Source of the DNA: Porphyrobacter sp. SLTP | GTDB lineage: Bacteria > Pseudomonadota > Alphaproteobacteria > Sphingomonadales > Sphingomonadaceae | Direction of reading: 5' to 3' | DNA length: 64,000 nucleotides | Assembly (NCBI RefSeq): GCF_009905735.1 | Contig: NZ_JAAALE010000003.1 | Coordinates: forward strand, 62,001-126,000 | Shown here: in pieces, positions 38,828 through 54,189 of the stretch | Layout of the letters: each line of letters opens with the position of its first letter | How positions within the stretch are numbered: position 1 is the first letter of the stretch | Program-made: the position numbers and the translations under genes | Notes under the pieces: generated by a model | What the model saw: the letters and a program-made list of their open reading frames with translations, nothing else | The model's database searches: none | What the model was told of the DNA's origin: nothing

Positions 38828-40282
38828 TCAGGGCTGCCCGTCCGTTCGCCGCTCGTCCACCGTCTCGCCTCCCAGGGCGCGGTATAGGGCGACCCGGTTG
38901 CTGGCTTCGATCAGCTGGGTCGCGAGAAGCGTGCGCTGTGCCGCATAGGACGCGCGCTGTGCATCGAGGCTGGCAAGGAAGGAATCGATCCCGCCGCGAT
39001 AGCGCAGGTCGGCAAGACTGAAGTTATCCTCGGCCGCATCGACAAAGGCGCGGTTGGCGCGCAGCTGTTCGGTGATCGTGCCGCGGCGTGCGAGCGCGTC
39101 GGCAACATCGCGGAAGGCGGCCTGTATGGCGCGCTCATAGCCTGCGACCGCCGCTTCGCGCTGCGCCTCGGTCTGAGCCACACCGGCCTGCGCGGCGCCG
39201 CCTGCGAACAGCGAATAGCGCACATTGGCGCCCGCTGAATAATTGAACGCCGCGCCCGTGAACAAGGTGGACAGCGCATTGCTCGCAAAGCCTGCAAGCC
39301 CGGTCAGCGTGATCCGCGGGAACAGCGCCGCGCGCGCCGCGCCAATCTCGGCATTGGCGGCGCGCAGTTCGTATTCCGCCTGCATCACATCGGGTCGGCG
39401 CAGTAGGATCGCGGAATCGAGGCCAGCCGGCAGCGTGCGCACCGCCTCGCCCGCATCGGCGAGCGATTGCGGCAGCAGCGCGTCGTCCACCGGCGCGCCG
39501 ACCAGCAGTTGCAGCGCGTTGATGTCCTGCGCCAGAGCGGTTTTCTGCTGCGCGATATCGGCTTCGGCGGTGGCAAGGATCTGTTCCGCCTGGCGCAGAT
39601 CGGTGCGCGGCGCGATACCGCCGTCGAGCCGCAGCCGGGTCAGCTTCACCTGCTCGCGCGCATTGGCCGCCGTATCCTCGGCAAGCTTCAGCAGGGAGCA
39701 ATCGGCAGCATAGGTCAGCCACGCATCGGCGACATCGCCAATCAGCGTCAGCCGCGTTGCCCGGGCCGCCGCCTCCGTGCCGAAATAGCGATTGAGCGCG
39801 GCATCGGACAGCGACTGCAACCGTCCGAACAGGTCGACCTCGAACGCCGTCGTGCTCACATCGGCGGTGTAGCGCACCCCGGCGGTCGAGCGGCTGGCCG
39901 ACGGATCATTGCCGATGTCGACGTCCTGATTGCGGTTCTGGTTGGCTGTGCCGTTGTCGAACTGGGTGCGGCCCGCGCCTACGCCGACCTGCGGCAATTG
40001 GCCCGCGCGCTGGATGCGGAACTGCGCACGCGCTGTGGCGATGTTGGCGGCGGCCACGCGCAGGTCGCGATTATTGGCGAGCGCCCGTTCTATGACCTGT
40101 GCGAGCCGCGGATCGGCGAAGACCTCGCGGTAGGTCATCACCGGCAGCGCGGCCTCGCTCTGCGCAAAATAGGCATCGCCTACCGGCCACGATGCCGGGA
40201 CGGGCAGGGCGGGCTGCACATATTTGGGCGCCATCGAACAGCCCGAAAGCAACGCCAGCGCGATCAATGCCCCGCTTCTCAT
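38828..40282 (-). CDS. RND efflux outer-membrane lipoprotein, NodT/OprM family
   Basis: 484 aa. The lipoprotein signal IALALLSGCSMAPKY ends in lipobox L-S-G-C (Cys15). Two OEP repeats follow (from about 60 and 280; ANIATARAQFRIQRAGQLPQ and AEIGAARAALFPRITLTGL), which form the trimeric channel-tunnel. Ends with the ALGG region usual in NodT proteins. Start is coupled by ATGA to the transporter gene upstream (40282-40279). Carries drugs from the periplasm out of the cell as the last part of the tripartite pump encoded here. Confidence 0.93.
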   Translation of the reverse strand: MRSGALIALALLSGCSMAPKYVQPALPVPASWPVGDAYFAQSEAALPVMTYREVFADPRLAQVIERALANNRDLRVAAANIATARAQFRIQRAGQLPQVGVGAGRTQFDNGTANQNRNQDVDIGNDPSASRSTAGVRYTADVSTTAFEVDLFGRLQSLSDAALNRYFGTEAAARATRLTLIGDVADAWLTYAADCSLLKLAEDTAANAREQVKLTRLRLDGGIAPRTDLRQAEQILATAEADIAQQKTALAQDINALQLLVGAPVDDALLPQSLADAGEAVRTLPAGLDSAILLRRPDVMQAEYELRAANAEIGAARAALFPRITLTGLAGFASNALSTLFTGAAFNYSAGANVRYSLFAGGAAQAGVAQTEAQREAAVAGYERAIQAAFRDVADALARRGTITEQLRANRAFVDAAEDNFSLADLRYRGGIDSFLASLDAQRASYAAQRTLLATQLIEASNRVALYRALGGETVDERRTDGQP

Positions 40283-43200
40283 GCCGTGCCTCCTTCGGTT
40301 GCAGCAGGCGGCGAGCTTGGGCCGAGATGCAGCTTCTTGAGCGTGTCGCGGGTCGTGCGGCGCACGATTACGAAGAACAGCGGGATGAAGAAGATCGCCA
40401 GCACCGTCGCGGTCAGCATCCCGCCGATTACCGATGTGCCGATCGCGATGCGGCTGTTGGCGCCGGCCCCGCTCGACAGCGCCAGCGGCAACACGCCAAA
40501 GATGAAGGCGAGGCTGGTCATCAGGATCGGACGCAGGCGCAGGCGGGCCGCCTCAAGCGCGGCATCAATCACCCTTGCGCCGCGCTTTTCGGCCTGTTCG
40601 GCAAATTCGATCACAAGGATGGCGTTCTTCGCCGCCAGACCCATCGTGGTCAGGAGCCCGATCTGGAGGAAGACGTCGTTCTCAAGCCCCCGCAGCGTTA
40701 CGGCGAAGACCGCACCGACCAGACCCAGCGGAATCACCAGCATCACCGCCACCGGGATGGTCCAGCTTTCATAGAGCGCGGCAAGGCACAGGAAGACCAC
40801 CAGCAGCGACAGAGCATAGAGCAGGGGTGCCTGACCGGAGGACAGCCGCTCCTGGAACGACAGGCCCGACCATGCGACGCTGACGCCCGGTATGTCCTTG
40901 GCCAGCGCCTCGATCCGGTCCATCGCCGCACCCGAACTTTCGCCCGGCGCGGCCTGACCGTCGAACTGGAAACTGGGATAACCCTGAAAGCGGGACAGCG
41001 TGGTCGGCGTGGTCGACCAGCGGGTGCGGGCAAAAGAGGAAAAGGGCGCCATCTGCCCATTATCGCCGCGTACGAACCACCGGCCGATATCGTCGGGCGT
41101 CGCGCGGTAGGGCGCATCGGCTTGCACGAAGACGCGCTTCACCCGCCCGCGATCAATGAAGTCGTTGACATATTGCCCGCCCCACGCAGCTGACAGGGTG
41201 GCGTTCACATCCGCCTGATTGAGCCCCAAGGCGGCGAGCTTGGGCTGGTCGATATCCACCTGCAAGGTCTGCACATCGGGCAACTCGCCCAGTCGCACAC
41301 CGGCGAGGGCGGGATCCCCCTCCGCCGCCGCGAGCAGCTTGTCACGCGCGGCGATGAATTCCTCGCGGCTCATCCCGCTGGTGTTCTGGAGCTGGAGGCT
41401 GAAGCCGTTGGTCTGGCCAAGGCCGCGGATGGCGGCAGGGACAAGGACATTGACCTGCGCATCGCGGAACCCGGCGAACGCCTTGTTGGCCCGCTCACTG
41501 ATCCCGTCGGCAGAATTCTCCTCGCCTTCGCGCTTCGACCAGTCGACGAAATTGACGAAGCCCTGTCCGGTGTTCTGCCCGGCCGCACCCTGTCCGCCGC
41601 CCGCAACGCTGAACATGACCGCGATGTTCTTGCGCTCATCTTCCAGCATGTATTTCTCGATGGCGAGCTGCACCTCGCGCGTGCGCCCCAGCGTCGCACC
41701 GGCGGGCAAGCGGTACTGAAGGCGCACCGATCCTTGATCCTCGGTCGGCAGGAAGCCGGTCGGCAGGCGCACAAACAGCACGGCCAGCAGAACCAGCACA
41801 ATCGCGTAGATCGCGAGGAACAGCCATTTGCGGTCGACCACCCGGCCCACGGCCACCACATACTTGTCAGTGCCGCGCGCAAAGGTGGTGTTGAACCACG
41901 ACTGGGCCTTTGCCAGAGCTTCAGCCCCGCGAGGCCAAGCGCGTTGCAGACGGCTTGGGTGATCGTCGACGGCATGCTGCTTCTGCCGCAACAGCGTTGC
42001 GGTCAGCGCCGGACTGAGGATCAAGGCGACCAGCGCCGACAGCACCATCGCCGATACGATCGTGATCGAGAACTGGCGATAGATCACGCCCGTCGATCCG
42101 CCGAAGAACGCCATGGGCAGGAACACCGCGGACAGCACGACCGCAATGGCGACCAGCGCCACCTGGATCTCGCCCATCGACTGGATCGTCGCTTCCTTGG
42201 GCGTCATGTCGGGGTTTTCTTCGAGCAGGCGCTCGACATTCTCGACCACCACGATCGCATCGTCGACCAGCAGGCCGATTGCCAGCACCAGCCCGAACAG
42301 CGTCAAGGTGTTGATCGAGAACCCTGCGACATAGAAGATCGCGAAAGTACCCAGCAACACCACCGGCACGGCAATGGTGGGGATCAGGGTCGCGCGCCAG
42401 CTTTGCAGGAACACGAACATGACGAGCACGACCAGCAGGATCGCTTCGATCAGCGTCTGCACCACCTCGTCAATCGACAGGCGGATGAAGGCCGTGGTGT
42501 CATTGGCATAATCGACATTATAGCCCGGCGGAAAGCTCGGCTTGGCATCGGCGACGGCCTGTTTGACAAGATCGGCAGTGGCAAGCGCGTCGGCGCCCGG
42601 CGCAAGCGAGATGGCGAGGCCAGCCCCCGGGTGTCCGTTGATCCGGCTGGATGCCGAATAGTTTTCCGCGCCCAGCTCAACCCGTGCGACATCGCTGAGC
42701 CGCACGATCGCGCCGCTCTGTTCGGACTTGAGGATGATCGCCTTGAATTCGTCCACGGTGCGCAAGCGCGATTGCGAGGTGACCGTGGCATTGAGCTGGT
42801 TGCTGTCCGGTTGCGGCACCCCGCCGACTTCTCCGGCCGCGACTTCGGTGTTCTGGTTGCGGATCGCGGTGACGATGTCGCCCGGCATCAGCCCGACCGC
42901 GGCAAGCCGGTCCGGATCGAGCCAGACCCGCATCGCGTAAGGCGATCCGAACACGTTGGTTTCTCCCACGCCTTCGATCCGCGAAAGTTCGTCCTGAAGG
43001 TTCGAAACCAGAAAATCGGACACATCGATGTTCGTGCTGCGGTCGGTTTCGTCATAGACGCCGACGATCATCAGGAAATCGGGGTTGGATTTGGTGACGC
43101 GCAGCCCCTGTTGCTGCACCTGTTGCGGCAAGCGGGCGAGCGCCTGTTGCACCTGGTTCTGCACCTGAACCTGAGCAATGTCGGGATCGGTTCCCTTCTC

Positions 43201-43482
43201 GAAGGTGGCGCTGATCGTCACCTGTCCGCGCGATGTGGAGCTGGAATTGAAATAGAGCAGCCCGTCGATCCCGGTCAGTTGCTGCTCGATGATCTGGGTG
43301 ACGCTGTTTTCCAGCGTCTCGGCCGAGGCACCGGGGAAGGTCGCGCGGATGTTGACCTGTGGCGGCGCGACGTCGGGATATTGCTCGATCGGCAGCAGGG
43401 TGATCGATCCGATGCCTGCCAGCATCGTAATGATCGCCAGCACCCAGGCAAAGATCGGCCGTTCGATGAAAATGCGCGACAT
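40279..43482 (-). CDS. RND efflux pump inner-membrane transporter, HAE-1 family (AcrB/MexB-like)
   Basis: 1067 aa, the usual length. Two halves of six helices each with large periplasmic loops. MSRIFIERPIFAWVLAIITM opens the protein and YPDVAPPQVNI follows; the proton-relay aspartates are in GLLVDDAIVVVENVERL (about 402-418), with a Lys in the second half (GLAAKNAILVIEFAEQAEKRG). Exports hydrophobic and amphipathic compounds using the proton gradient. Middle gene of adaptor-pump-channel; 9-nt gap after the adaptor and ATGA overlap to the channel. Confidence 0.96.
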   Translation of the reverse strand: MSRIFIERPIFAWVLAIITMLAGIGSITLLPIEQYPDVAPPQVNIRATFPGASAETLENSVTQIIEQQLTGIDGLLYFNSSSTSRGQVTISATFEKGTDPDIAQVQVQNQVQQALARLPQQVQQQGLRVTKSNPDFLMIVGVYDETDRSTNIDVSDFLVSNLQDELSRIEGVGETNVFGSPYAMRVWLDPDRLAAVGLMPGDIVTAIRNQNTEVAAGEVGGVPQPDSNQLNATVTSQSRLRTVDEFKAIILKSEQSGAIVRLSDVARVELGAENYSASSRINGHPGAGLAISLAPGADALATADLVKQAVADAKPSFPPGYNVDYANDTTAFIRLSIDEVVQTLIEAILLVVLVMFVFLQSWRATLIPTIAVPVVLLGTFAIFYVAGFSINTLTLFGLVLAIGLLVDDAIVVVENVERLLEENPDMTPKEATIQSMGEIQVALVAIAVVLSAVFLPMAFFGGSTGVIYRQFSITIVSAMVLSALVALILSPALTATLLRQKQHAVDDHPSRLQRAWPRGAEALAKAQSWFNTTFARGTDKYVVAVGRVVDRKWLFLAIYAIVLVLLAVLFVRLPTGFLPTEDQGSVRLQYRLPAGATLGRTREVQLAIEKYMLEDERKNIAVMFSVAGGGQGAAGQNTGQGFVNFVDWSKREGEENSADGISERANKAFAGFRDAQVNVLVPAAIRGLGQTNGFSLQLQNTSGMSREEFIAARDKLLAAAEGDPALAGVRLGELPDVQTLQVDIDQPKLAALGLNQADVNATLSAAWGGQYVNDFIDRGRVKRVFVQADAPYRATPDDIGRWFVRGDNGQMAPFSSFARTRWSTTPTTLSRFQGYPSFQFDGQAAPGESSGAAMDRIEALAKDIPGVSVAWSGLSFQERLSSGQAPLLYALSLLVVFLCLAALYESWTIPVAVMLVIPLGLVGAVFAVTLRGLENDVFLQIGLLTTMGLAAKNAILVIEFAEQAEKRGARVIDAALEAARLRLRPILMTSLAFIFGVLPLALSSGAGANSRIAIGTSVIGGMLTATVLAIFFIPLFFVIVRRTTRDTLKKLHLGPSSPPAATEGGTA

Positions 43483-43491
43483 GGCCGCGCC

Positions 43492-44559
43492 TCAACCCTT
43501 CGTATCGGGCTTGGGGGCAGCGATCACCTGCGGCTTGCTGGCCGGAACAGGGCGGATCGGCGCGCCCGGCTTGATCTTGGCGACGCCTTGGACGATCACC
43601 TTGTCGCCCGGTTTCAGTCCGCCCGTCACCACCCAGTCAGAGCCAACCGCACGGGTCGCCTCGACCTTGCGTTCGGCGGCCTTGTTGCCGGCATCGACAA
43701 CGAAAACGCTCGCCTCGCCCCGGGCATTGCGGGTCACGGCCGCCTGCGGAACGAGGATCGCGCCGGTATCGATCGCCTGATCGAAGCGCGCCCGCACGAA
43801 CATTCCGGGCAGCAACAATCCGTTCGGATTGGGGAAGCGGGCGCGCAGCGTCACCGTGCCCGTCTCCGGATTGACCATCACTTCGGAGAACTGGACGACC
43901 CCTTGCGGGCCATACTCGGTCCCGTCCTCAAGGATCAGGCGCACCGCCGTGCTGGCCGGCACAGCGCCGCCTTGCACCAGTGACTTGCGCAGCGCGAGAA
44001 GATCGGCGCTTGATTGCTGGATATCGACAAACACCGGATCCACGCCCTGGATCACTACGAGCGGCTCGGCCTGATTGCCGGTGACCAGCGCGCCCACCGT
44101 GAACAGTGAACGGCCGATGCGGCCGGTGATCGGAGCGGGCACGCGGGTGAACTGGAGGTTGATATTGGCCGTCTGCAGCTGCGCGCGCGCCTGCTGCACC
44201 GACGCTGCTGCCTGACGTGCGGCCGCCTGCGCATCAGTATAGTCCTGCATCGCCACTGCCTGCGCTTCGGCCAGCGGCTTCAACCGCTCGGCACGGACGC
44301 GGGTGGCTTCCGCATTGGCGAGAGCACTGTTGAGGTTGGCGTTAGCCTCTGCTGCGCCAGCACGAAACAGACGCGGGTCGATCTCGTAAAGGGTCTGCCC
44401 CGCCTGTACCAAGGCCCCTTCGGTAAAGAACCGGCGGCGGATCAGTCCGCTGACCTGCGGCCGCACCTCGGACATCTCGAACGCCGTGACACGTCCCGCC
44501 AGTTCGACCGGAACCGGCACGGAACTGGCCTTGACCACGACATAGCCGACCTCCGGCAC
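43492..44559 (-). CDS. RND efflux periplasmic adaptor (membrane-fusion protein), N-terminus unsettled
   Basis: 355 aa from the GTG at 44559: biotinyl-lipoyl-like domain (GALVQAGQTLYEIDP, 48-62), alpha-hairpin (about 65-135), beta-barrel and membrane-proximal domains. It lacks an export signal as written. Upstream in the same frame, 44560 to about 44670, the codons read FRFAVAGLAALALAGC SGDAGDG, an excellent lipoprotein signal with lipobox L-A-G-C (Cys codon at 44596-44598). That frame has no ATG, GTG or TTG before its stop at 44728-44730. So the start is non-standard (ATC at 44679 or 44646 is in frame), or a frameshift separates the ATG at 44705 from the signal, or the base sequence has an error. 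First gene of the pump operon. Confidence 0.82.
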   Translation of the reverse strand: MPEVGYVVVKASSVPVPVELAGRVTAFEMSEVRPQVSGLIRRRFFTEGALVQAGQTLYEIDPRLFRAGAAEANANLNSALANAEATRVRAERLKPLAEAQAVAMQDYTDAQAAARQAAASVQQARAQLQTANINLQFTRVPAPITGRIGRSLFTVGALVTGNQAEPLVVIQGVDPVFVDIQQSSADLLALRKSLVQGGAVPASTAVRLILEDGTEYGPQGVVQFSEVMVNPETGTVTLRARFPNPNGLLLPGMFVRARFDQAIDTGAILVPQAAVTRNARGEASVFVVDAGNKAAERKVEATRAVGSDWVVTGGLKPGDKVIVQGVAKIKPGAPIRPVPASKPQVIAAPKPDTKG

Positions 44560-44960: not shown

Positions 44961-47084
44961 CTATTGATCCAGAAGCTTGCGAATGGTTTCGGCCAATTCT
45001 GTCCGGCGGAAGGGCTTGCTCAAGACGCTCAATGGGTTTTGCAGGCGTCGTTCCCGCATCAGCGGGTCTTCGCTGTAGCCTGATGCCAGTAGCACCTTCA
45101 GTCCCGGTTGTTGTTCCAGGGCAACCTCCACCAACTGCCTGCCGTTCATCTCGCCGGGCATGACGACGTCTGTGAAAAGCAGATCGAAGGGCGGGCTTTC
45201 CGATATGATCTGCAACGCGTCTGCGGCCGATCCTGCGGCCACGATGGTGTAGCTGAGCCGTTCCAGCTGGACGACAAGGCTCTGCCGAACCAGAACATCA
45301 TCCTCGACCACCAGAATGCGCTCCGCCCGGCCCGTTGGGACCTGCTGCGCTTCGGGTGGGGCAAGCTGGATTTCATCATCATCGGTTGCAGGGAAATAGA
45401 GGCTGATCGTGGTGCCATTCATGAGCTCCGAAGCGATCTCGGCGAACCCGTGCGACTGACGCACAAACCCCCACACCATCGAGAGGCCAAGACCTGATCC
45501 CTGGCCCACCTCCTTGGTCGTGAAGAATGGTTCGAACGCACGTTCGATATCCTGTGGCGGCATCCCGCAGCCATCATCCGCGACAGTGATCATGACATAG
45601 CGGTCACCAACGCAGTCTTCATGGCGCCGCGGATCATCCGCACCAATGATGATGTTCGATGCCGTGATGATGATTTCACCGCCATTGGGCATGGCATCGC
45701 GCGCATTGATCACGAGGTTCAGAATGGCATTCTCCAACTGGCCCGGATCAACCTCGACCGACCAGACATCGGGATCAGCTGTCAGCGATATCGTGATGTT
45801 TTCAGGAATGGTCCGGCGGACCAGCGTTTCGATGCCTGCGAACAATCCGCTGAGATGAAGCTTGGTGGGAGACAAGGTCTGAAGCCGCGCGAAGGAGAGC
45901 AATCTGCTCGTGAGCATGGCTCCGCGCTCTGCTGCCTGCATCGTGGTTTCCGCCAGCCAGCGCGAATCCGCGTCCGCAGCATGGATTTGCGCGAGCTCCT
46001 CCGCATTGCCGAGTATGATCGTAAGCAGATTGTTGAAATCATGCGCCAACCCGCCTGTCAGCTGGCCCACAGCTTCCATCTTGTGGGCCTGACGCAACTT
46101 CTTTTCCAGAGCATTGAATTCCGACACATCGGTGGAACTGCCGATAATCCGGGTGGGCTTTCCTTCGGCATCATGCAGGATCATGGCGCGTTCGACCATG
46201 TCGACAACTTCGCCATCGGCGCAAACAAACCGGAACTTGCACAGCCATGTCCCTTGGCCGTTTGCGATGGCTGCCCGCAGGCTTTTGACGACACGCTCGC
46301 GGTCGTCGGGATGGATCCAGTTCTCGCGGGCCTGCGGATCTGTCGCGAATTCGCGCGGGTCATAGCCGTAGCTGTCTAAGAGCTTTTCGTTCCACCACAC
46401 CGTGCCTTCGACAAGGTCAATGTCGCAGACAAGATCATTGGTCGCGAGGCTGAGCAAGCGGAAGCGTTCCTCGCTCACGCGGAGCGCAGCGGCGCTCCGT
46501 TCAGTCTCCTCGGCAAGCGCAGCACGTCTGATCTCCTGATCGCGGTGTTCCGTGAACAAGCCGATGAAAGCCACAAAAGCAAAGTAGCTGATCGTGTAAG
46601 CCAAGACGGTGGCAATGCCGACCGCGTCCGTCAGATCGGCCATCATGAACACGATCATCGGCGCGGGGCCGATGTTTACCAGAAGTCCGATCGGGCGTTT
46701 GTAAAAGCCAAAATTGGTGAAGTGGTGGAACACAACCAACGGGAAGAACCAGGCCATGTAAGGCAGGGTCCGGGAAATCTGATCAGTGGTGGCGTAGGCG
46801 ATGATCGCCCCTGCGTTGAGGTGCACACAGTAATAGATTGTGAGGCATCCCGTGATCACACCTGTCGCCATCGCTGGCCGGATCGACATTGCGACCAACA
46901 GGCTGCCGGTTACGACGGCAGCAATGCCCAGCACCCAGGACTCCGGACCGGATATGTTGCCGAGGCCGACGGCAACAACCGTCCCCAGCATTGCCCCGAC
47001 AAATGCAATGATCAGCGATAATCTGACCGAGTTCTGCGCTTGCCTGCGGCGGTAACTGAAGCGGCTGATATCCGTATCGTTCAT
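44961..47084 (-). CDS. Membrane hybrid histidine kinase with PAS and receiver domain
   Basis: 707 aa: five to six hydrophobic segments (20-175) with no known sensor signature; one PAS domain (about 200-320, [20 protein letters not shown]); HisKA with H348 in GGLAHDFNN; HATPase with [21 protein letters not shown] and GSGLGL; then a receiver domain with the phospho-Asp in [10 protein letters not shown]. Same kinase core as the two multi-PAS kinases in the window but with a membrane sensor. No response regulator is adjacent; the attached receiver would pass phosphate to an unlinked phosphotransfer protein or act locally. Divergent from the HTH-hydrolase gene at 47234. Confidence 0.92.
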
Positions 47085-47233
47085 GCCCGGGCTGCCTTCA
47101 GGGTGATGCCGAATTTACAGAATAACGCATTGGCCTAAAATTTTCGTGCGTCTCAGCGCCTTTTGCCCGCCGGGCCGCTTACTGGTTAGCATGATACTGC
47201 CCGGTTGATTTAACCCATTTAGGGGGATGTCGC

Positions 47234-48961
47234 GTGGCGGTGCGCAAGCCTATCACCCACATCGTTCCACCAGAGGGCGGCAACGCAGTGCATAAGGTCG
47301 ATGTCATCCTTCCGGATCAATTCACGGGCGGCCCCGACGCGATTGGCTCTGACGACGGCTGGTTGCAGGTGCAGTTCGCACGGCTTGAAGCGCAGACCGA
47401 GGGGTTCTGGTTCGAAACCTACGACGACAAGCGCTTCGGGCCGTCGATCGTCATTGTCGGAGACAGCCCGGCAATGCGTCGGATCATTTTCGATCCCGCA
47501 TTGATGACCGATCCAGTGCCGGCAGGTAGCCTCTGCGTGTTGCGGCCAGACTGGAATCTGATCGAGGCACAATTGCACGGCTTCACCCAGGATTTCGGGA
47601 TGTCGCCATCGGTCACCCGGCTGGTCGTGGCCTTGTTCCAGTCGGGCGATGTCCGGGCGGCGGCGGCACGCGCGGGGCTGGCCTATGAAACCGCGCGCGA
47701 ATATCTCGGCGCAGCGCGCCAGATGGTGGGCGCGACGAACCTTCAGAATCTCATCACGCTCATCGGTCTGGGGATCGCCCGAACCGGGAGAAATGCGGAA
47801 GAAAGCGACGCTTTGCTCGCCTACGCGTACGGCTTGTCCGAAAGGCAGACCCAGATCGCGGGCCTGATCGCCAATGGCGCTGCGCGGCAGGCAGTGGCGC
47901 GCACGCTGGGGGTGTCCGAAGCCCTGGTGAAGAAAGAGCTCGCGCATATCTTCGCCGCCGTCGATGTCACCAATGCGGCGGCCCTGGCGCGCACGATGGT
48001 GGAGTTCCGGCTGCTCGCGATCGCGACCAACCTTCATGACGGACACGACCCTTTCCCCGAGGCGGTTCACCACGTTCTCACCCTCACCGCGCGCGATGGC
48101 CGGGTGATCATGGCGAGCGACTATGGCCCGCGCTCGGGCGAGCCGCTCTTGGTGCTGCATTCCAGCATGACCAATCGCCCGGTCAATCGCGCGCTGGTGG
48201 AAGCGCTGCAGAACAATGGCTATCGGCCGATTGCCATCGACCGGCCCGGCTTTGGCGGAACCGATGCAGCGCCGGAGGACTGCCGGGGTGACGACTATTT
48301 CAACCTCGCCGCACGCGACATCGTCGATGTCTGCGAAGCCAAGGGCTGGGCGCACATCAAACTGGTGTCGCGCGGGGCGGCGCAGATCATCGTCGCACTG
48401 CATCGGCTATGCCCCGAATTGATCGCAGCGGCCGTGATCATGAATCCCGATCCCGATGCCATGTCGAGCTCCAAGCGAAGCGGCTTTCTGGCTGCGATGA
48501 AGCGCAACTTTGTGCGGCGGCCATGGGCGGCCGGGATGATGTCGCGCTGGGCTGTGCAATCGCTGACCTTCGCACGGGTGCGCGACAACGTCCTGCGCTC
48601 GGCCGCGGGCTGTCCGGCCGATGAAAAGATCATGGCCGATCCTTTGCACATGCAAGACTATTATCGGGGCGTCACGGCCTTCCGCGAAGGCAAGCTCGAT
48701 GGCTTCGTGCGTGAACAGACGGCTCTGGCGACCGTGGGCATGCCGCAACCGCTGCGCGGGACCCAACGGCTGACGCTGCTGGTGGGCGATCAGGACAGCA
48801 TCCACGATCCGCATGAAACAATGCGATATTGGCGAAAGGTTCTACCCGACGCGCACATCGCAATGGTACCCGGTGCAGGGCGTTTCATGAGCTTCAGTCA
48901 CCCCGAACTGGTCGTCAGGGCGCTCAGCCGCCAGCCAGCCATCCGGCAATCCGCGGTTTAA
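47234..48961 (+). CDS. LuxR-like HTH / alpha-beta-hydrolase fusion, catalytic residues lost
   Basis: 575 aa. Start is GTG 47234 with AGGGGG at 47221-47226, a 7-nt spacer. The first 120 residues are an unassigned domain. Two helix-turn-helix-like segments follow: about 123-165 (SPSVTRLVVALFQSGDVRAA, degenerate) and 201-262 (LSERQTQIAGLIANGAARQA then VARTLGVSEALVKKELAHIF), a LuxR/NarL-type DNA-binding pattern. From about 290 is an alpha/beta-hydrolase fold: LLVLHSSM, IAIDRPGFGGTD, and at the nucleophile elbow KLVSRGAAQ, where the Ser position is Gly381. The Asp position remains (D519/D521) but the usual His in GAGHF is Arg550. It looks like a regulator with a dead hydrolase as ligand-binding domain. 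Ligand unknown. Confidence 0.8.
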   Translation: MAVRKPITHIVPPEGGNAVHKVDVILPDQFTGGPDAIGSDDGWLQVQFARLEAQTEGFWFETYDDKRFGPSIVIVGDSPAMRRIIFDPALMTDPVPAGSLCVLRPDWNLIEAQLHGFTQDFGMSPSVTRLVVALFQSGDVRAAAARAGLAYETAREYLGAARQMVGATNLQNLITLIGLGIARTGRNAEESDALLAYAYGLSERQTQIAGLIANGAARQAVARTLGVSEALVKKELAHIFAAVDVTNAAALARTMVEFRLLAIATNLHDGHDPFPEAVHHVLTLTARDGRVIMASDYGPRSGEPLLVLHSSMTNRPVNRALVEALQNNGYRPIAIDRPGFGGTDAAPEDCRGDDYFNLAARDIVDVCEAKGWAHIKLVSRGAAQIIVALHRLCPELIAAAVIMNPDPDAMSSSKRSGFLAAMKRNFVRRPWAAGMMSRWAVQSLTFARVRDNVLRSAAGCPADEKIMADPLHMQDYYRGVTAFREGKLDGFVREQTALATVGMPQPLRGTQRLTLLVGDQDSIHDPHETMRYWRKVLPDAHIAMVPGAGRFMSFSHPELVVRALSRQPAIRQSAV

Positions 48962-49051
48962 CCGCCCCAATCCCCCCAAACGGATATGCCGCCGCTTTCG
49001 CGCCTGATTAACGTCCGGCGCTATGCGCAGGATTGTCGAATGGGGAATGGA

Positions 49052-50044
49052 ATGAAACGGTATCTAGCAATCGCAGTATTGGCCATCATGGTAGCGGGGC
49101 CTTTGGCGCTGCCAGCCCAAGGTGCGGACCCCAAGCCGGCCATCAAGATCGACAAGCCTGCCGCAATGAATGCGTCGAAGCAGGTGGTGGTCGGCAGCTT
49201 TGTGGTCGCCTTCCTCATTGAACGGCGAGACAGCGCCAAAGCTGGCGGCGGGTTACTGGGCTCGGGTTTCGGGGGCAAATCTTCGGCCCGCAGCACCTTG
49301 GCCGGACTGACTGACGCCGACTTTCAGGCCGCGACCGATGCGGCCTACGCCGATTTCGAACGGCAGATAACGGCGGCGGGCTACACTGTCGCGGATCGCG
49401 CACAGGTGCTGGCCGCAGTCACTGAAGGCGGCGCCAAGGCTCAGGAGAATGGCGCAGAAAAGGACCTCATCCTTGGCCGCGATTCCAAAGCCGAGGCCCG
49501 GCTGTTTGCTCCGTCGGGCTGGGGCGGCCCCCTCATCGCACGCGAATTTCTGGGTCTGATGGGCCCCGGCGGATTCAACGGTGCCCGCAGCGCAATCATG
49601 ATGACGATGAAAGGGCAGGAATTCGCCAAAACCAGCGGTCAGGCGGTGGTCAATGTCTTCTATGTCGTCGATTTCGCCCAGGCCGAAACCTACGGCGGCG
49701 CTTTCCGCAATGTCTCGGCGGTCAACGTCAAAGCGGGGCTAGCGACAGTGCCCGAAGCGAGCAAGCTCGTGGTCTTTGCACCAAAGGGGCAGATCGGCAC
49801 AGCCACCTTGCGGGAACCGATCGCGGTGGGCGGTGCGTTTGGCGAGTTTGCCGACACGCAAAGTGGCGGCGAAAAGGCGCTCAACACCGCGGCCAACGTC
49901 ATCGGCTTTCTGGGCGGTATCGGCACGAACAGCTCGAAAAAGTACACCATGACAGCCGATCCCGCCGCTTGGCGCAGCGGCCTGTCGGAGTTGATGAGCG
50001 CCACCAATGCGCAATTCACCGCCGCCATGAATGGAGCACGTTGA
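49052..50044 (+). CDS. Secreted protein of unknown family
   Basis: 330 aa. Signal peptide MKRYLAIAVLAIMVAGPLAL to PAQGA, cleavage near 28. The start at 49052 is preferred over 49040 because GGGGAATGG is better placed for it. The mature part is Gly/Ala-rich with no transmembrane segments: an early beta-rich stretch (QVVVGSFVVAFLIERRD), a helical stretch around TDADFQAATDAAYADFERQI, then mixed regions (VVNVFYVVDFAQAETYGGAF) and SSKKYTMTADPAAWRSGLSE near the end. I do not recognise a family. It lies 90 nt downstream of the HTH-pseudohydrolase gene on the same strand and may belong to its transcript. A hairpin follows. Confidence 0.7.
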   Translation: MKRYLAIAVLAIMVAGPLALPAQGADPKPAIKIDKPAAMNASKQVVVGSFVVAFLIERRDSAKAGGGLLGSGFGGKSSARSTLAGLTDADFQAATDAAYADFERQITAAGYTVADRAQVLAAVTEGGAKAQENGAEKDLILGRDSKAEARLFAPSGWGGPLIAREFLGLMGPGGFNGARSAIMMTMKGQEFAKTSGQAVVNVFYVVDFAQAETYGGAFRNVSAVNVKAGLATVPEASKLVVFAPKGQIGTATLREPIAVGGAFGEFADTQSGGEKALNTAANVIGFLGGIGTNSSKKYTMTADPAAWRSGLSELMSATNAQFTAAMNGAR

Positions 50045-50067
50045 GGCGGGCGCAGATGGATCGCGCT

Positions 50068-50101
50068 CCTTACCGCCAGTCCCGCGACGCTGGCGGTAAG
50101 G
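50068..50101 (+). terminator. Hairpin after the secreted-protein gene
   Basis: CCTTACCGCCAG (50068-50079) and CTGGCGGTAAGG (50090-50101) make a perfect 12-bp stem with a 10-nt loop, 23 nt past the stop. No T-run follows. Confidence 0.65.
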
Positions 50102-50287
50102 ACAGCCCCGTCAGACCGGGGGCCGTCCATCCCTTCGGATGAGACACCGCGCCGGATCTCCCCACCATAGCCCAATAAACAATTCCCTCGAACGGTGCAC
50201 ATCCGCTAACACTGTCATCTGTGACATGGTTGGCGGCCACGACCTTTGGCTCAGTTGCTCCAACTAAGCGCTAGAGTGGGGACGGGA

Positions 50288-52978
50288 ATGGGTGGGACCT
50301 TCTACACAAACATGCTGGACGCTGTCTCCGACGGGGTCGTGGCGTTCAGCCCGGACCGACAGATTATTTATTGTAATCAGGCGTTTCTTGATATCACCGG
50401 CCTTGATCGCAGCGATCTGGACCATGGACTCTGCGTGGCTATCCAAGGCGCTGACACAGATCGTGAAACAATCGCCAGAATTGATGAGGCGCTTGCCAAC
50501 GGCACGTCGTTTGATGGCGAAATTCTCAATTACCGCAAATCCGGCGAAGCCTTCTGGAACCATTTGTCATTCAAGCCGGAGACCGACGCGACCGGTAGCG
50601 TAACCCATTTTATCGGGATTTCGCGCGATGTGACAGCCAACCGCAGCACGCTGACACGGTTCTCCCAGCTGGAGCGGGATTACGAGTTCATCTTCGAGAA
50701 TGTGCTGGCTGGGATTATCATCCGTGATCCGGACTCCCGTGTCCGCTACATCAACCCCAAGGCGAGGGAAATGCTCGGCCTGACCGGAGATACCACGATT
50801 GACGCGGCTACTGTCGAGCGTGGCTGGCAGTTCCTTCGCCCTGATGGATCGGTGATGCCCCCTGCGGAGTTCCCGTTCTACCGTGCTCTACGCGAACGCG
50901 CGACGGTGCGAGGTGTGTTGATGGGGCACAGGCGGACATTCGACGGCAAGATCGTTTGGGCGCTCTGCGACGCGTTCCTCGCCAATGATGACAAGGGTGA
51001 TGTGGCAGCGGTGCTGGTGAGCTTTACCGATGTCTCTCGCCTTATCGAAAGCGAGCAAACCGCCCACGCATATCGCGAACGCTTCGAGCTTGCCGCGCGC
51101 GCGAGCCAGGATGTGATTTTCGAATGGAACATCGAAACAGGTGCCTTCAGTGCCAACGAAGCGTTCAAGAACGTCTATGGCTATGAACCGCCGGAAATCA
51201 TGGGCCCCGGCAATCTCGACGCCCGCAATACAGTGGAAGCCGATCAGCACGCGGTGCGCGATGTCACGCTGAAGGCCATTGCATCAGGCGAAGAGCGCTT
51301 TTCCGTCGATCACATGATCAATCGCCCTGATGGATCGATCGGCCATATCGTGATCCGGGCCTTCATTGTCCGCAATCCGCAAGGCGAGGCCTTGCGCGTA
51401 ATTGGGACGGCGACCGACATTGGTCAACTTTCCGCCGCGCTTGCTGCACTGGAGGAATCCGAGACCCGGTTCCGGATCATCGCTGACACGGTCAGTGACA
51501 TCCTGTGGGATCACAATTTCGAGACCGGGCGATTGTGGATGACGCCGGATTGGAACATCAAGCTGGGCTTGGAGGCACCGCAGGAGCCTGTCACGACGGA
51601 TGGCTGGGTAGACCTGATCGATCCGGCGGATCTTGAAGCAACGCTCCAATCCTATCGCGAAGCCTTGAAATCGAATGCGACGCAGTGGGAGAGAGAATAC
51701 CAGGTGGTGGGCGCGGATCAGCGCAAGATTGATGTGGCGGTAAAGGCGTGCATCCTGCGTCGTCCCGATGGCAAGGCTTACCGCGTCTTGGGCAGCGTGC
51801 GCGACGTCACCAATCTGAAGCGCCAGCAGGAAGGCTACAGCCGCGCCCGCGCACTTGAAGCTGTCGGGCAGCTGACCGGCGGCATCGCGCATGACTTCAA
51901 CAATCTGCTGATGATCATCCTCGGCAATGCCGAATTGCTAGGCATGAGCAACCTCAGTGATCCGGATGCCGAAAGTGTCGCCTTGATCGGTCATGCGGCG
52001 GAAAACGCCGCTACCTTGACCAAGCGCTTGCTGGCATTTTCCGGACAAAACCGGCTGAAGGCAAGTCGCGTCGATATGGCGGCATTGCTCGATAACATGT
52101 GGCCTCTCCTGCGCGCTGGGCTGCCGGAAAGTATTTCCGTGACCCGGAGCATTGATGAAAACATCTGGGAGCCGAATGTCGATGCCAACAGCCTTGAGCA
52201 GGCGATCATCAATCTTGCCATGAATGCGAAGGACGCCATGCCGAATGGCGGAGAAATCTCGATCCTTTGCGAGAACCATGTGGTGACAGATGACATGGTG
52301 CCCAATGCATCGGGTTTGGCAGCAGGGCGCTATGTGCTCTTGTCCTTCTCAGACACCGGCAGCGGTATGTCGGCGGATGTCTTGAGCAAGGCCGTCGAAC
52401 CCTATTTCACGACCAAGGAGTTCGGCAAAGGTACCGGACTGGGCCTGAGCACGGTCTATGGCTTTATCACCCAGTCGGGCGGCAGTTTAACGATCCATAG
52501 CGAGGAGGGTGTCGGCACCACGGTCAATCTCTATCTGACCGCCGGCACGGGGTGCGATTTGCACGATACCCATGACGCTGCTGAGGCGCGGCACAACCCT
52601 GCGCCCCGGCATCATCGCATTCTGGTAGTGGAAGACCAGCCAGACGTGCGCTCGCATGTCGAAAGATTGCTTTCGCGGCTCGGATACGCGGTTGTTGCGG
52701 CGAGCGATGCCGTTTCGGCGCTTGCGATCCTGAAGGAAGGGCAGACGTTTGATCTGCTCTATACTGATATCATCATGCCTGGCGGAATGAACGGCCAGGA
52801 ACTCAGCAAGGCTGCCAAGCAAATCGCCCCGCGGATGAGAGTGCTTTTCACCTCCGGTTATCCGGCCGCTGCGTTCGAGCACCTGGGTATCGAAGACCAG
52901 AGCAGTATCAATATCCTCCGCAAACCTTACAGGGCCAAGGAGCTTGAGGATGCCATCGCCAAAGCGATCTCTGACTGA
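50288..52978 (+). CDS. Multi-PAS hybrid histidine kinase with LOV-like domain keeping Cys49
   Basis: 896 aa, no membrane helix, same order as the kinase at 33607: LOV-like PAS (5-117), three further PAS domains, HisKA with the H in GGIAHDFNN (about 535), HATPase (GSGMSADVLSKAVEPYFTTK), receiver (LLYTDIIMPGG, RKPYRA). In the first domain the adduct Cys is at 49 (HGLCVAIQGADTDRE), and both flavin-contact Asn are kept (N81 in NYRK, N91 in AFWN). The Asn before Cys is Leu48 and the Gln that signals to the flavin N5 is Ser112 (HFIGISRD). It is therefore a candidate blue-light kinase with an unusual pocket. Start at ATG 50288 gives a length almost equal to its paralogue. Confidence 0.92.
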   Translation: MGGTFYTNMLDAVSDGVVAFSPDRQIIYCNQAFLDITGLDRSDLDHGLCVAIQGADTDRETIARIDEALANGTSFDGEILNYRKSGEAFWNHLSFKPETDATGSVTHFIGISRDVTANRSTLTRFSQLERDYEFIFENVLAGIIIRDPDSRVRYINPKAREMLGLTGDTTIDAATVERGWQFLRPDGSVMPPAEFPFYRALRERATVRGVLMGHRRTFDGKIVWALCDAFLANDDKGDVAAVLVSFTDVSRLIESEQTAHAYRERFELAARASQDVIFEWNIETGAFSANEAFKNVYGYEPPEIMGPGNLDARNTVEADQHAVRDVTLKAIASGEERFSVDHMINRPDGSIGHIVIRAFIVRNPQGEALRVIGTATDIGQLSAALAALEESETRFRIIADTVSDILWDHNFETGRLWMTPDWNIKLGLEAPQEPVTTDGWVDLIDPADLEATLQSYREALKSNATQWEREYQVVGADQRKIDVAVKACILRRPDGKAYRVLGSVRDVTNLKRQQEGYSRARALEAVGQLTGGIAHDFNNLLMIILGNAELLGMSNLSDPDAESVALIGHAAENAATLTKRLLAFSGQNRLKASRVDMAALLDNMWPLLRAGLPESISVTRSIDENIWEPNVDANSLEQAIINLAMNAKDAMPNGGEISILCENHVVTDDMVPNASGLAAGRYVLLSFSDTGSGMSADVLSKAVEPYFTTKEFGKGTGLGLSTVYGFITQSGGSLTIHSEEGVGTTVNLYLTAGTGCDLHDTHDAAEARHNPAPRHHRILVVEDQPDVRSHVERLLSRLGYAVVAASDAVSALAILKEGQTFDLLYTDIIMPGGMNGQELSKAAKQIAPRMRVLFTSGYPAAAFEHLGIEDQSSINILRKPYRAKELEDAIAKAISD

Positions 52979-53190
52979 TTGATTTCGCGGGGTATTGGGC
53001 CGCGCCTCTCAAATCAGGGAGCGCGTATTTGCGCTTTTCCTGTCAGTCGTAAGTCATTTCTGGCAACGAAAATGCGCGGTGTTCCGGGATATTGAGCTCA
53101 AGCAGCAGTCAACTCACGAACGCGACTGCAAGAGCGAAATTACATCCTGAAGTTAATAGAAATTTTGCTTGCTTCAGGTATCTCTCGCCT

Positions 53191-54189
53191 ATGGGAACCG
53201 GAAGAAACATCGACCGGCGTAAAGCGCAGCCCCAAGCCATCCGGCTTGGGCAACCCCTATTCATGCACGTCCCAAAAGCAGTTGCCGAGCCCGTGCTGAC
53301 AGCCTGTGCCCTGATCATCATCATCTTGAGCAACGTCGCTTCTGAAGTTTCCTTTGGCCCATTTTTATTGGTCATTTGCGCCTTTGGCGCTTGGTTCTTG
53401 GGCAACAGATTTGCGCTCTTGCTCAGCTTATTTGTTGCCTCAACTCAGATACTTAACGGTCATGCCCCCGCTCTCGAGGGCAGTCCCCTGATCATGGTAT
53501 TGAAATTTCTGAGTGTGCTGGCGGTCGTCTTGATGCTGGGCGTGGCCCGTGCCGCGCTTGAACTCGAGTGGCGCTACGCGAGAGTTGACCAATTGACCGG
53601 AGCCCTCAATCGGAAGGCATTCTTCGAGGCCATCGAGAGCGGAGGAAGCCGAACAGGCCTGACTGTCTTGGTGTATGCCGATGTCGATGGCCTCAAGCTG
53701 ATCAACGATCAGTTTGGCCATGATGCCGGAGACCGCGCGCTTGGCGGCTTGGCACATCGCATTAAGAGCGCAATCAGGAAGGACGATATCTTCGCCCGAA
53801 TAGGTGGCGATGAATTCGCGATCATTCTGAAAGTGCGGGACGCTCATGCCGCGGAATTGGTGGCAAAGCGGCTGAATGACGCACTCAATCTCGATCCTCT
53901 CAAGGGAGAGGTTGATATACGCTGCAGCTTGGGTGTGCTGGTTTTGCCGCAGGGTTCAAAGTCTATCGACGCCGAACTCAAGCAAGCGGACACGTTGATG
54001 TATCATGCCAAGAAGGCTCAGGTTGGCATGATGATGGCAATTTCGATTGAGGGCGACATGCAAGCGTTCGCACCTCCCGCTTCGAGCACCAGTTCCGATG
54101 GTCAACAGCGAGCCGCTGTGCGTTCGGCCCGGCGCGCCACCGGACTTGCAAGAAGTGATGATACGCCTGAAGGCACTTTAGCGGCTTGA
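53191..54189 (+). CDS. Diguanylate cyclase (GGDEF) with membrane anchor
   Basis: 332 aa from ATG 53191; earlier TTG at 53092 is possible, and no strong Shine-Dalgarno settles it. Three to four membrane helices (about 31-50, 57-90 and 102-122) precede a GGDEF domain with RIGGDEF (G205-F209) intact. The product-inhibition I-site RxxD is present as RKDD (196-199), five residues before the GGDEF motif. It should make cyclic di-GMP from two GTP. Tail after 300 is low complexity. It lies 212 nt after the LOV-like kinase and on the same strand, and 1.2 kb before a PilZ gene, suggesting a local cyclic-di-GMP circuit. Confidence 0.92.
   Translation: MGTGRNIDRRKAQPQAIRLGQPLFMHVPKAVAEPVLTACALIIIILSNVASEVSFGPFLLVICAFGAWFLGNRFALLLSLFVASTQILNGHAPALEGSPLIMVLKFLSVLAVVLMLGVARAALELEWRYARVDQLTGALNRKAFFEAIESGGSRTGLTVLVYADVDGLKLINDQFGHDAGDRALGGLAHRIKSAIRKDDIFARIGGDEFAIILKVRDAHAAELVAKRLNDALNLDPLKGEVDIRCSLGVLVLPQGSKSIDAELKQADTLMYHAKKAQVGMMMAISIEGDMQAFAPPASSTSSDGQQRAAVRSARRATGLARSDDTPEGTLAA

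Follow-up and report, generated by a model that had tools for sequence, protein, structure and literature searches.

The window, a stretch of 64,000 nucleotides from Porphyrobacter sp. SLTP, contains a gene whose product joins, in the order given by Pfam and AlphaFold2, an N-terminal part, two helix-turn-helix (HTH) units, and an alpha/beta-hydrolase domain. The gene and its parts are located as follows:

47234..48961, plus strand: fused regulator gene (575 aa, GTG start, single continuous open reading frame)
47234..47584, plus strand: N-terminal part, residues 1-117, with strands and helices in the AlphaFold2 model
47585..47782, plus strand: HTH1, LuxR-type, residues 118-183
47813..48028, plus strand: HTH2, LuxR-type (GerE), residues 194-265
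48065..48931, plus strand: alpha/beta-hydrolase domain, residues 278-566
48455..48748, plus strand: helical cap region, residues 408-505, helices in the model and strongly conserved

The open reading frame and its fusion layout had been described in a sequence-only reading of the window, and the continuous frame, the Pfam matches, the AlphaFold2 model, and the conserved homologues all bear out this description. In the HMM search that the same reading had suggested, Abhydrolase_1 (PF00561) matched residues 304-557 with an E-value of 1.8e-12 and 47.9 bits, above the curated cut-off of 25.8, and GerE (PF00196) matched residues 201-253 with an E-value of 8.1e-5 and 22.6 bits, slightly below the cut-off of 23.5. 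HTH1 had no Pfam match, and neither an autoinducer-binding domain nor a receiver (Response_reg) was matched by Pfam anywhere in the window protein at E-values up to 1. The AlphaFold2 model was generated from a 55-row alignment and has a mean pLDDT of 82.5, with values below 50 for the first 41 residues. It comprises a small strand-rich part, four-helix units at residues 125-181 and 203-264, both predicted at mostly high confidence, and a hydrolase core that bears a helical cap. The 50 matches listed in a Foldseek comparison with the PDB named hydrolases, esterases, dehalogenases, and similar enzymes of the alpha/beta-hydrolase fold, which is a fold that we presume for a few of them. Pfam, the modeled core, and these structural matches thus agree on the hydrolase fold that had been claimed.

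Searches of 100 relatives, 114 genomes of the genus, and 396 genomes of the order yielded 56 fused homologues besides that of the window. The underlying 59-row set consists of matches that reach profile position 540, which removed fragments truncated at the ends of loci. Two of the 59 rows are not fused, namely the unfused hydrolase L099 and the hydrolase half L071, leaving the window protein and the 56 others. L004 and L122, whose contigs have an identical length (59235), were taken as one. The alignment used for the model (A4) contains 55 of the 59 rows, without L053, L071, L079, and L099. A set of further members from a wider sample comprises 31 rows, with 1 of 32 open reading frames left out as incomplete. 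In the genus, close orthologues are present in G000, which is the window's own genome, G001, and G443, and more distant members of the same clade are found in G050 and G368. As the three best candidates were scored per genome, the counts from the profile searches in the order, class, and phylum are lower bounds: at least 313 of the 396 order genomes match at an E-value of 1e-10, with many rows limited to either the hydrolase or the HTH part; at least 7 of 385 genomes of a class sample match the clade profile at 1e-20, the window's own included; and at least 72 of 398 genomes of a phylum sample match at 1e-20. A reading of the phylum rows by eye gives at least 38 of the 398 genomes, again including the window's own, in which one match extends across both HTH and hydrolase. 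No fused relative was found in the plasmid searches. Two loci have an unusual arrangement: in L071 (713-2409, G274), the fused homologue is split into two overlapping open reading frames for the regulator and hydrolase parts, and L120 (6422-10120, G590) contains two fused-family genes in tandem.

Some rows of the phylum sample (for example, G748, G504, G1140, and G977) contain open frames of about 390-430 aa that match the N-terminal and HTH parts alone and possibly represent an unfused regulator type. As another candidate for an unfused form, we considered a NarL-type regulator next to a chloroperoxidase-like hydrolase, which is a pair present in four genomes (L034 5421-7169 in G000:C30, L043 in G010, L044 in G042, and L045 in G025). 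This candidate was rejected because the regulator is of the receiver-HTH type and because the accompanying hydrolase has a GHS elbow and the His in the two copies that were aligned.

In a quickly built 92-row tree with several long branches, the window protein belongs to a 20-row clade that forms a single group (SH-aLRT 99). A larger group of 39 rows (SH-aLRT 99) includes this clade together with five fused members that have an intact catalytic triad. A further clade member recognized by profile, L157 (G203), is absent from the tree and from the residue counts given below.

The former active site of the window protein was compared within this clade. Four positions and their occupancy are given here:

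48176..48178, plus strand: Arg315, present in 18 of 18 clade members; Arg also in L101 and L205
48371..48373, plus strand: Arg380 in the shortened nucleophile elbow; Arg in 16 and His in 2 of 18 clade members
48794..48796, plus strand: Asp521, the catalytic acid position, kept; Asp in 16 of 18 clade members
48881..48883, plus strand: Arg550 at the catalytic His position; Arg in 15, Gln in 2, and His in 1 of 18

The Ser-Asp-His triad of the window protein is incomplete: the nucleophilic Ser is absent and the His is replaced by Arg550, as had been read from the sequence and as the alignment confirms, and the acid is present in the form of Asp521, which had likewise been recognized correctly. The loss of the Ser also stands, whereas its proposed substitution by Gly381 is less apt than a deletion. 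Compared with a canonical hydrolase elbow, S379-R380-G381 lacks one residue, and L215 and L219 read S/A-R-D-x where the window clade reads S/A-R-gap-G, which is why the nucleophile is better called deleted than replaced. Probably, then, the Ser was deleted, with Gly381 aligning at or beside its place, as the register is uncertain by one residue. Position 381 itself is variable among the 18 clade members (Gly in 13, Cys in 2, and Arg, Ser, and Thr in 1 each). The neighboring position 379 is Ala in 12, Ser in 5, and Gly in 1 of them, and Ser379 is, by this alignment, no conserved nucleophile. Arg occupies the catalytic His position in 17 of the 20 clade rows and the elbow in 18 of the 20, and the clade members L101 and L205, which come from other families of the class, have Arg at 315, 380, and 550. 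A view of Arg315 as a novelty of the clade had to be rejected, as the triad-bearing L211, L224, and L228 also have Arg there.

Judged by eye, no row of the fused set from the genus and order has a complete Ser-Asp-His triad. The view that no fused member keeps the triad was overturned by the wider sample, in which 5 of the 31 further members (L211, L224, L228, L229, and L106) are intact. In other relatives, the nucleophile place is taken by Cys (L220, in G1180) or Asp (L210, in G489). L210 has the length of a fusion, yet no HTH was detected in it with the two clade HTH profiles. The nucleophilic Ser is absent in all 20 clade rows, and within the clade, as aligned here, triad loss is common to all rows. 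For the family as a whole, neither a single loss of catalysis nor a single fusion is shown: rows without the triad lie both inside and outside the 39-row group, the triad state has to change 6 times on the tree, and the unfused L099 is placed among the intact fused rows. On the basis of this tree, the family as a whole has likely undergone several losses or several fusions.

Turning to the HTH units, HTH1 and HTH2 matched each other in a profile-to-profile comparison with a probability of 97.1 and an E-value of 6.7e-11 over 63 columns, and by this measure, they are homologous. Arg155, a basic residue within the recognition helix of HTH1, aligns with Lys233 of HTH2, and neither residue varies among the 18 clade members. 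The idea that the HTH stretches are only helical linkers, which would have spoken against the fusion as proposed, is ruled out by the match between the two units. All 20 clade rows have two HTHs, as judged with profiles built from 18 of these rows (L101 and L205 were not among them). Two HTHs are also found in L215 and L219, the nearest rows outside the clade, and a single one is found in 5 of 5 fused rows with an intact triad. The other 62 tree rows have one HTH in 60 cases and none in 2 (L071, being half a gene, and L210), and none was detected by the clade HTH profiles in three unfused hydrolases. The duplication of the HTH therefore goes with this lineage.

The selection acting on these parts was estimated from the dN/dS ratios among the window gene and its two orthologues L005 and L004 (about 91% identity; an orthologue from Porphyrobacter sp. 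UBA7686, listed under Erythrobacteraceae, is 91% identical). For the whole gene, the ratio is 0.15-0.19. The N-terminal part is the least constrained (0.35-0.44) and HTH1 the most constrained segment (0.015-0.045), and the values are 0.075-0.112 for HTH2, 0.096-0.150 for the hydrolase domain, and 0.041-0.068 for the cap. By these ratios, HTH1, the cap, and HTH2 are under the strongest purifying selection, and the dead enzyme domain shows no decay. HTH1 had previously been called a degenerate LuxR-type HTH; its identity as an HTH is supported by the profile match and the model, but the word degenerate hardly suits what is the best-conserved part of the protein.

The less constrained N-terminal part may possibly be a shortened PAS-like fold. 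Pfam found no PAS match in the window protein. The corresponding region of the clade member L094 retrieved mostly PAS-type folds in Foldseek, with a best E-value of 0.12. PAS_4 was matched in 3 of 10 members of the other group, with a best E-value of 9.3e-4. A common N-terminal domain of the two groups was rejected, as their profiles (A7 for the other group and A8 for the window clade) remained unmatched at a probability of 1.4.

Upstream of the gene, we noted a short element that recurs in other members of the clade:

47214..47226, plus strand: candidate operator CCCATTTAGGGGG, a near-palindrome starting 20 bases before the GTG

Near-palindromes of this CCCCATTTGGGG type, defined as CCC-(0-2)-ATTT/AAAT-(0-2)-GGG after the motif had been seen in three lineages, occur in 8 of the 24 start regions examined in homologues, compared with 0.15 expected from a 391 kb background. 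The 24 regions comprise 20 from the clade and 4 from outside (two in G590, and one each in G731 and G686); all 8 sites lie in the window clade, and 16 regions have no site. As the window gene and its counterparts in G001 and G443 are orthologues, the 8 of 24 sites correspond to 6 of 22 lineages. The core ranked first among the 4-mer cores tested, and we regard the near-palindrome as a candidate operator. It overlaps the likely ribosome-binding site, and this overlap may explain part of its conservation. At 19 other loci, a site within one mismatch was found in 3, compared with 40 of 1500 random windows. A regulon could not be derived from a pattern scan of G000, which showed no enrichment (13 matches listed, two sites appearing twice, versus 16 in the reversed control). 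Scans of seven relatives gave, relative to the reversed control, 8 versus 3 matches in G163, 15 versus 2 in G253, 43 versus 13 in G693, 11 versus 9 in G216, 5 versus 6 in G001, 10 versus 11 in G368, and 5 versus 12 in G443.

Directly downstream of the regulator lies a second gene:

49052..50044, plus strand: probable exported-protein gene, adjoining the regulator; reading frame open from 48986; no Pfam family

A PDB profile search with the exported protein gave a best E-value of 0.55. The gene lies downstream of the fused regulator in G000 and G001, and it lies divergently beside a fused regulator in G368, where the regulator shows 32% identity across the part that matched, and in G693, which belongs to another family and in which the match covers mainly the N-terminal third. 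In G443, the contig ends before the position in question. Among the 114 genus genomes, 4 have the exported-protein gene, which adjoins the fused regulator in 3 but not in G447, and among the 396 order genomes, 16 have it. Outside G000, G001, and G368, there are 13 copies in the order, 10 of which lie within 901 bases of a gene that we take to be topA-like, and no fused regulator was found beside the 13 within the stretches examined. From its position, the adjacent exported-protein gene is a candidate target of the regulator. No neighbor common to the whole clade was seen. A conserved operon partner was rejected on these grounds; the TonB receptors, SDR, MFS, malic enzyme, and acyl-CoA dehydrogenase genes that lie near single members are too common to be put forward.

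The anatomy, the selection, and the family context, all of which come from sequence and modeling, fit a regulator that consists of one protein and takes its input through a non-catalytic hydrolase fold. We therefore consider it moderately probable that the protein acts as a one-component regulator of transcription, that its hydrolase-fold pocket binds a small molecule without turnover, and that its two HTHs act on the near-palindrome. According to this proposal, a small molecule would occupy the former active-site pocket, its binding would shift the packing of the hydrolase domain against the HTH pair, and DNA binding would change as a consequence. The two HTHs of one chain could then read both halves of the near-palindrome at the gene's own promoter, and the outcome would be autoregulation, with a small number of other genes, for example that of the adjacent exported protein, also under control. 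The two Arg residues at the old catalytic center suggest that the ligand is an anion, for instance a carboxylate, which is the weakest step of the mechanism. A one-protein sensor-regulator for a small ester or lactone had been proposed earlier; the regulator with a non-catalytic input is supported, but the ester or lactone is not, as the frequent Arg residues at the His position and in the elbow fit an anion equally well or better. A more detailed evolutionary series from enzyme to receptor within this family of fused regulators, in which, in one clade, the nucleophile was deleted, Arg was acquired in the elbow and at the His position, the HTH was duplicated, an intramolecular dimer came to sit on the operator, and an anionic signal was recognized, is tentative and, taken as a whole, rather doubtful. 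Counting against the main reading are the lack of a clade-wide neighbor, the 16 of 24 start regions without a site, the missing enrichment of the pattern in G000, the conflicting placement of triad losses and of the unfused L099 in the tree, and the fact that RsbQ, a sensor hydrolase discussed below and otherwise the closest precedent in function, needs its triad.

The dead hydrolase domain might instead be a scaffold that dimerizes or docks a partner, for example, a neighboring kinase, without any small ligand. The frequent and varied loss of the triad in the family would be expected if catalysis no longer matters, and two PAS-kinase-receiver genes are close by. However, the old catalytic center is conserved in a specific manner (Arg380, Asp521, and Arg550), the cap, which in hydrolases covers the pocket, is strongly constrained, and kinases were not seen as constant neighbors, so that we hold this explanation to be unlikely. 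It is quite improbable that the domain is still an enzyme, with another chemistry carried out by Asp521, His524, Ser555, or His556. Relatives with Cys (L220) or Asp (L210) at the nucleophile place would be in line with such a chemistry, as would His556, which is His in 14 of 18 clade members, but position 524 holds His in 8 and position 555 holds Ser in 11 of the 18, and the clade has no conserved Ser at its nucleophile place. No less improbable is a signaling by protein contacts with HTH units that have ceased to bind DNA: although GerE stays just under the Pfam cut-off and HTH1 was missed by Pfam, both units are strongly constrained, retain the invariant basic residue, and are modeled mostly with high confidence. 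That two genes were joined by chance, or that the gene is a decaying pseudogene, can practically be dismissed: the patchy occurrence among the 114 genus genomes could be cited in favor, but the same architecture is found in many genomes of several families and the whole-gene dN/dS is far below 1.

The sequence-only reading knew of no named system with this layout, and in agreement with this, no description of such a LuxR-hydrolase fusion was among the papers listed by searches of an open-access library. Plants provide the best-known cases of a hydrolase fold that has become a receptor, and for them the transition from enzyme to receptor has been discussed: GID1, D14, and KAI2 use the hydrolase fold for ligand perception, but they are not known to have a DNA-binding domain and act via partner proteins. 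Chloroperoxidases, arylesterases, fluoroacetate dehalogenases, and related enzymes have the fold and core sequence motifs in common with the window protein, but the named enzymes possess their catalytic residues and are not known to carry an HTH. With the GerE/LuxR-type HTH family, the window protein has the HTH fold, as modeled, and the basic residue of the recognition helix in common, but it differs in having a tandem pair of HTHs in one chain. The nearest solved HTH relative that we found is EL222, which the clade profile matches over HTH2 with an E-value of 4e-8 and which has a single HTH. Together with the window protein, the main reading would make two one-component regulators with LuxR-type HTHs, but EL222 from Erythrobacter litoralis is described as a combination of a LOV light sensor and an HTH, an architecture without a hydrolase domain (PMC6236058). 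The nearest described system found is RsbQ-RsbP-PAS (Nadezhdin et al., 2011, PMC3183031), in which an alpha/beta hydrolase likewise serves as a sensor part, in cooperation with PAS and output domains. According to this source, RsbQ-PAS consists of two proteins, the hydrolase being encoded separately beside the PAS protein, and the triad of RsbQ is required, whereas the window protein is one chain and its triad is lost. The outputs reported there are phosphatase, kinase, and diguanylate cyclase, and the words LuxR, helix-turn-helix, and DNA-binding are absent from the main text (PMC3183031).

If the more detailed evolutionary series outlined above is true, the protein would be a bacterial counterpart of the hydrolase-fold hormone receptors of plants that acts directly on DNA. 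The HTH-hydrolase family is spread over several families of the phylum, and the window member offers both a candidate operator and a candidate target. The family may thus illustrate how an enzyme becomes a chemical sensor, and because members with an intact triad, with Cys or Asp, and without a nucleophile share one family, this transition is testable.

The wider surroundings of the gene also contain signaling and transport functions. Two PAS-kinase-receiver genes and a GGDEF gene lie around the regulator (window 44961-54189), and three minus-strand genes at window positions 38828-44559 presumably resemble an RND efflux system.
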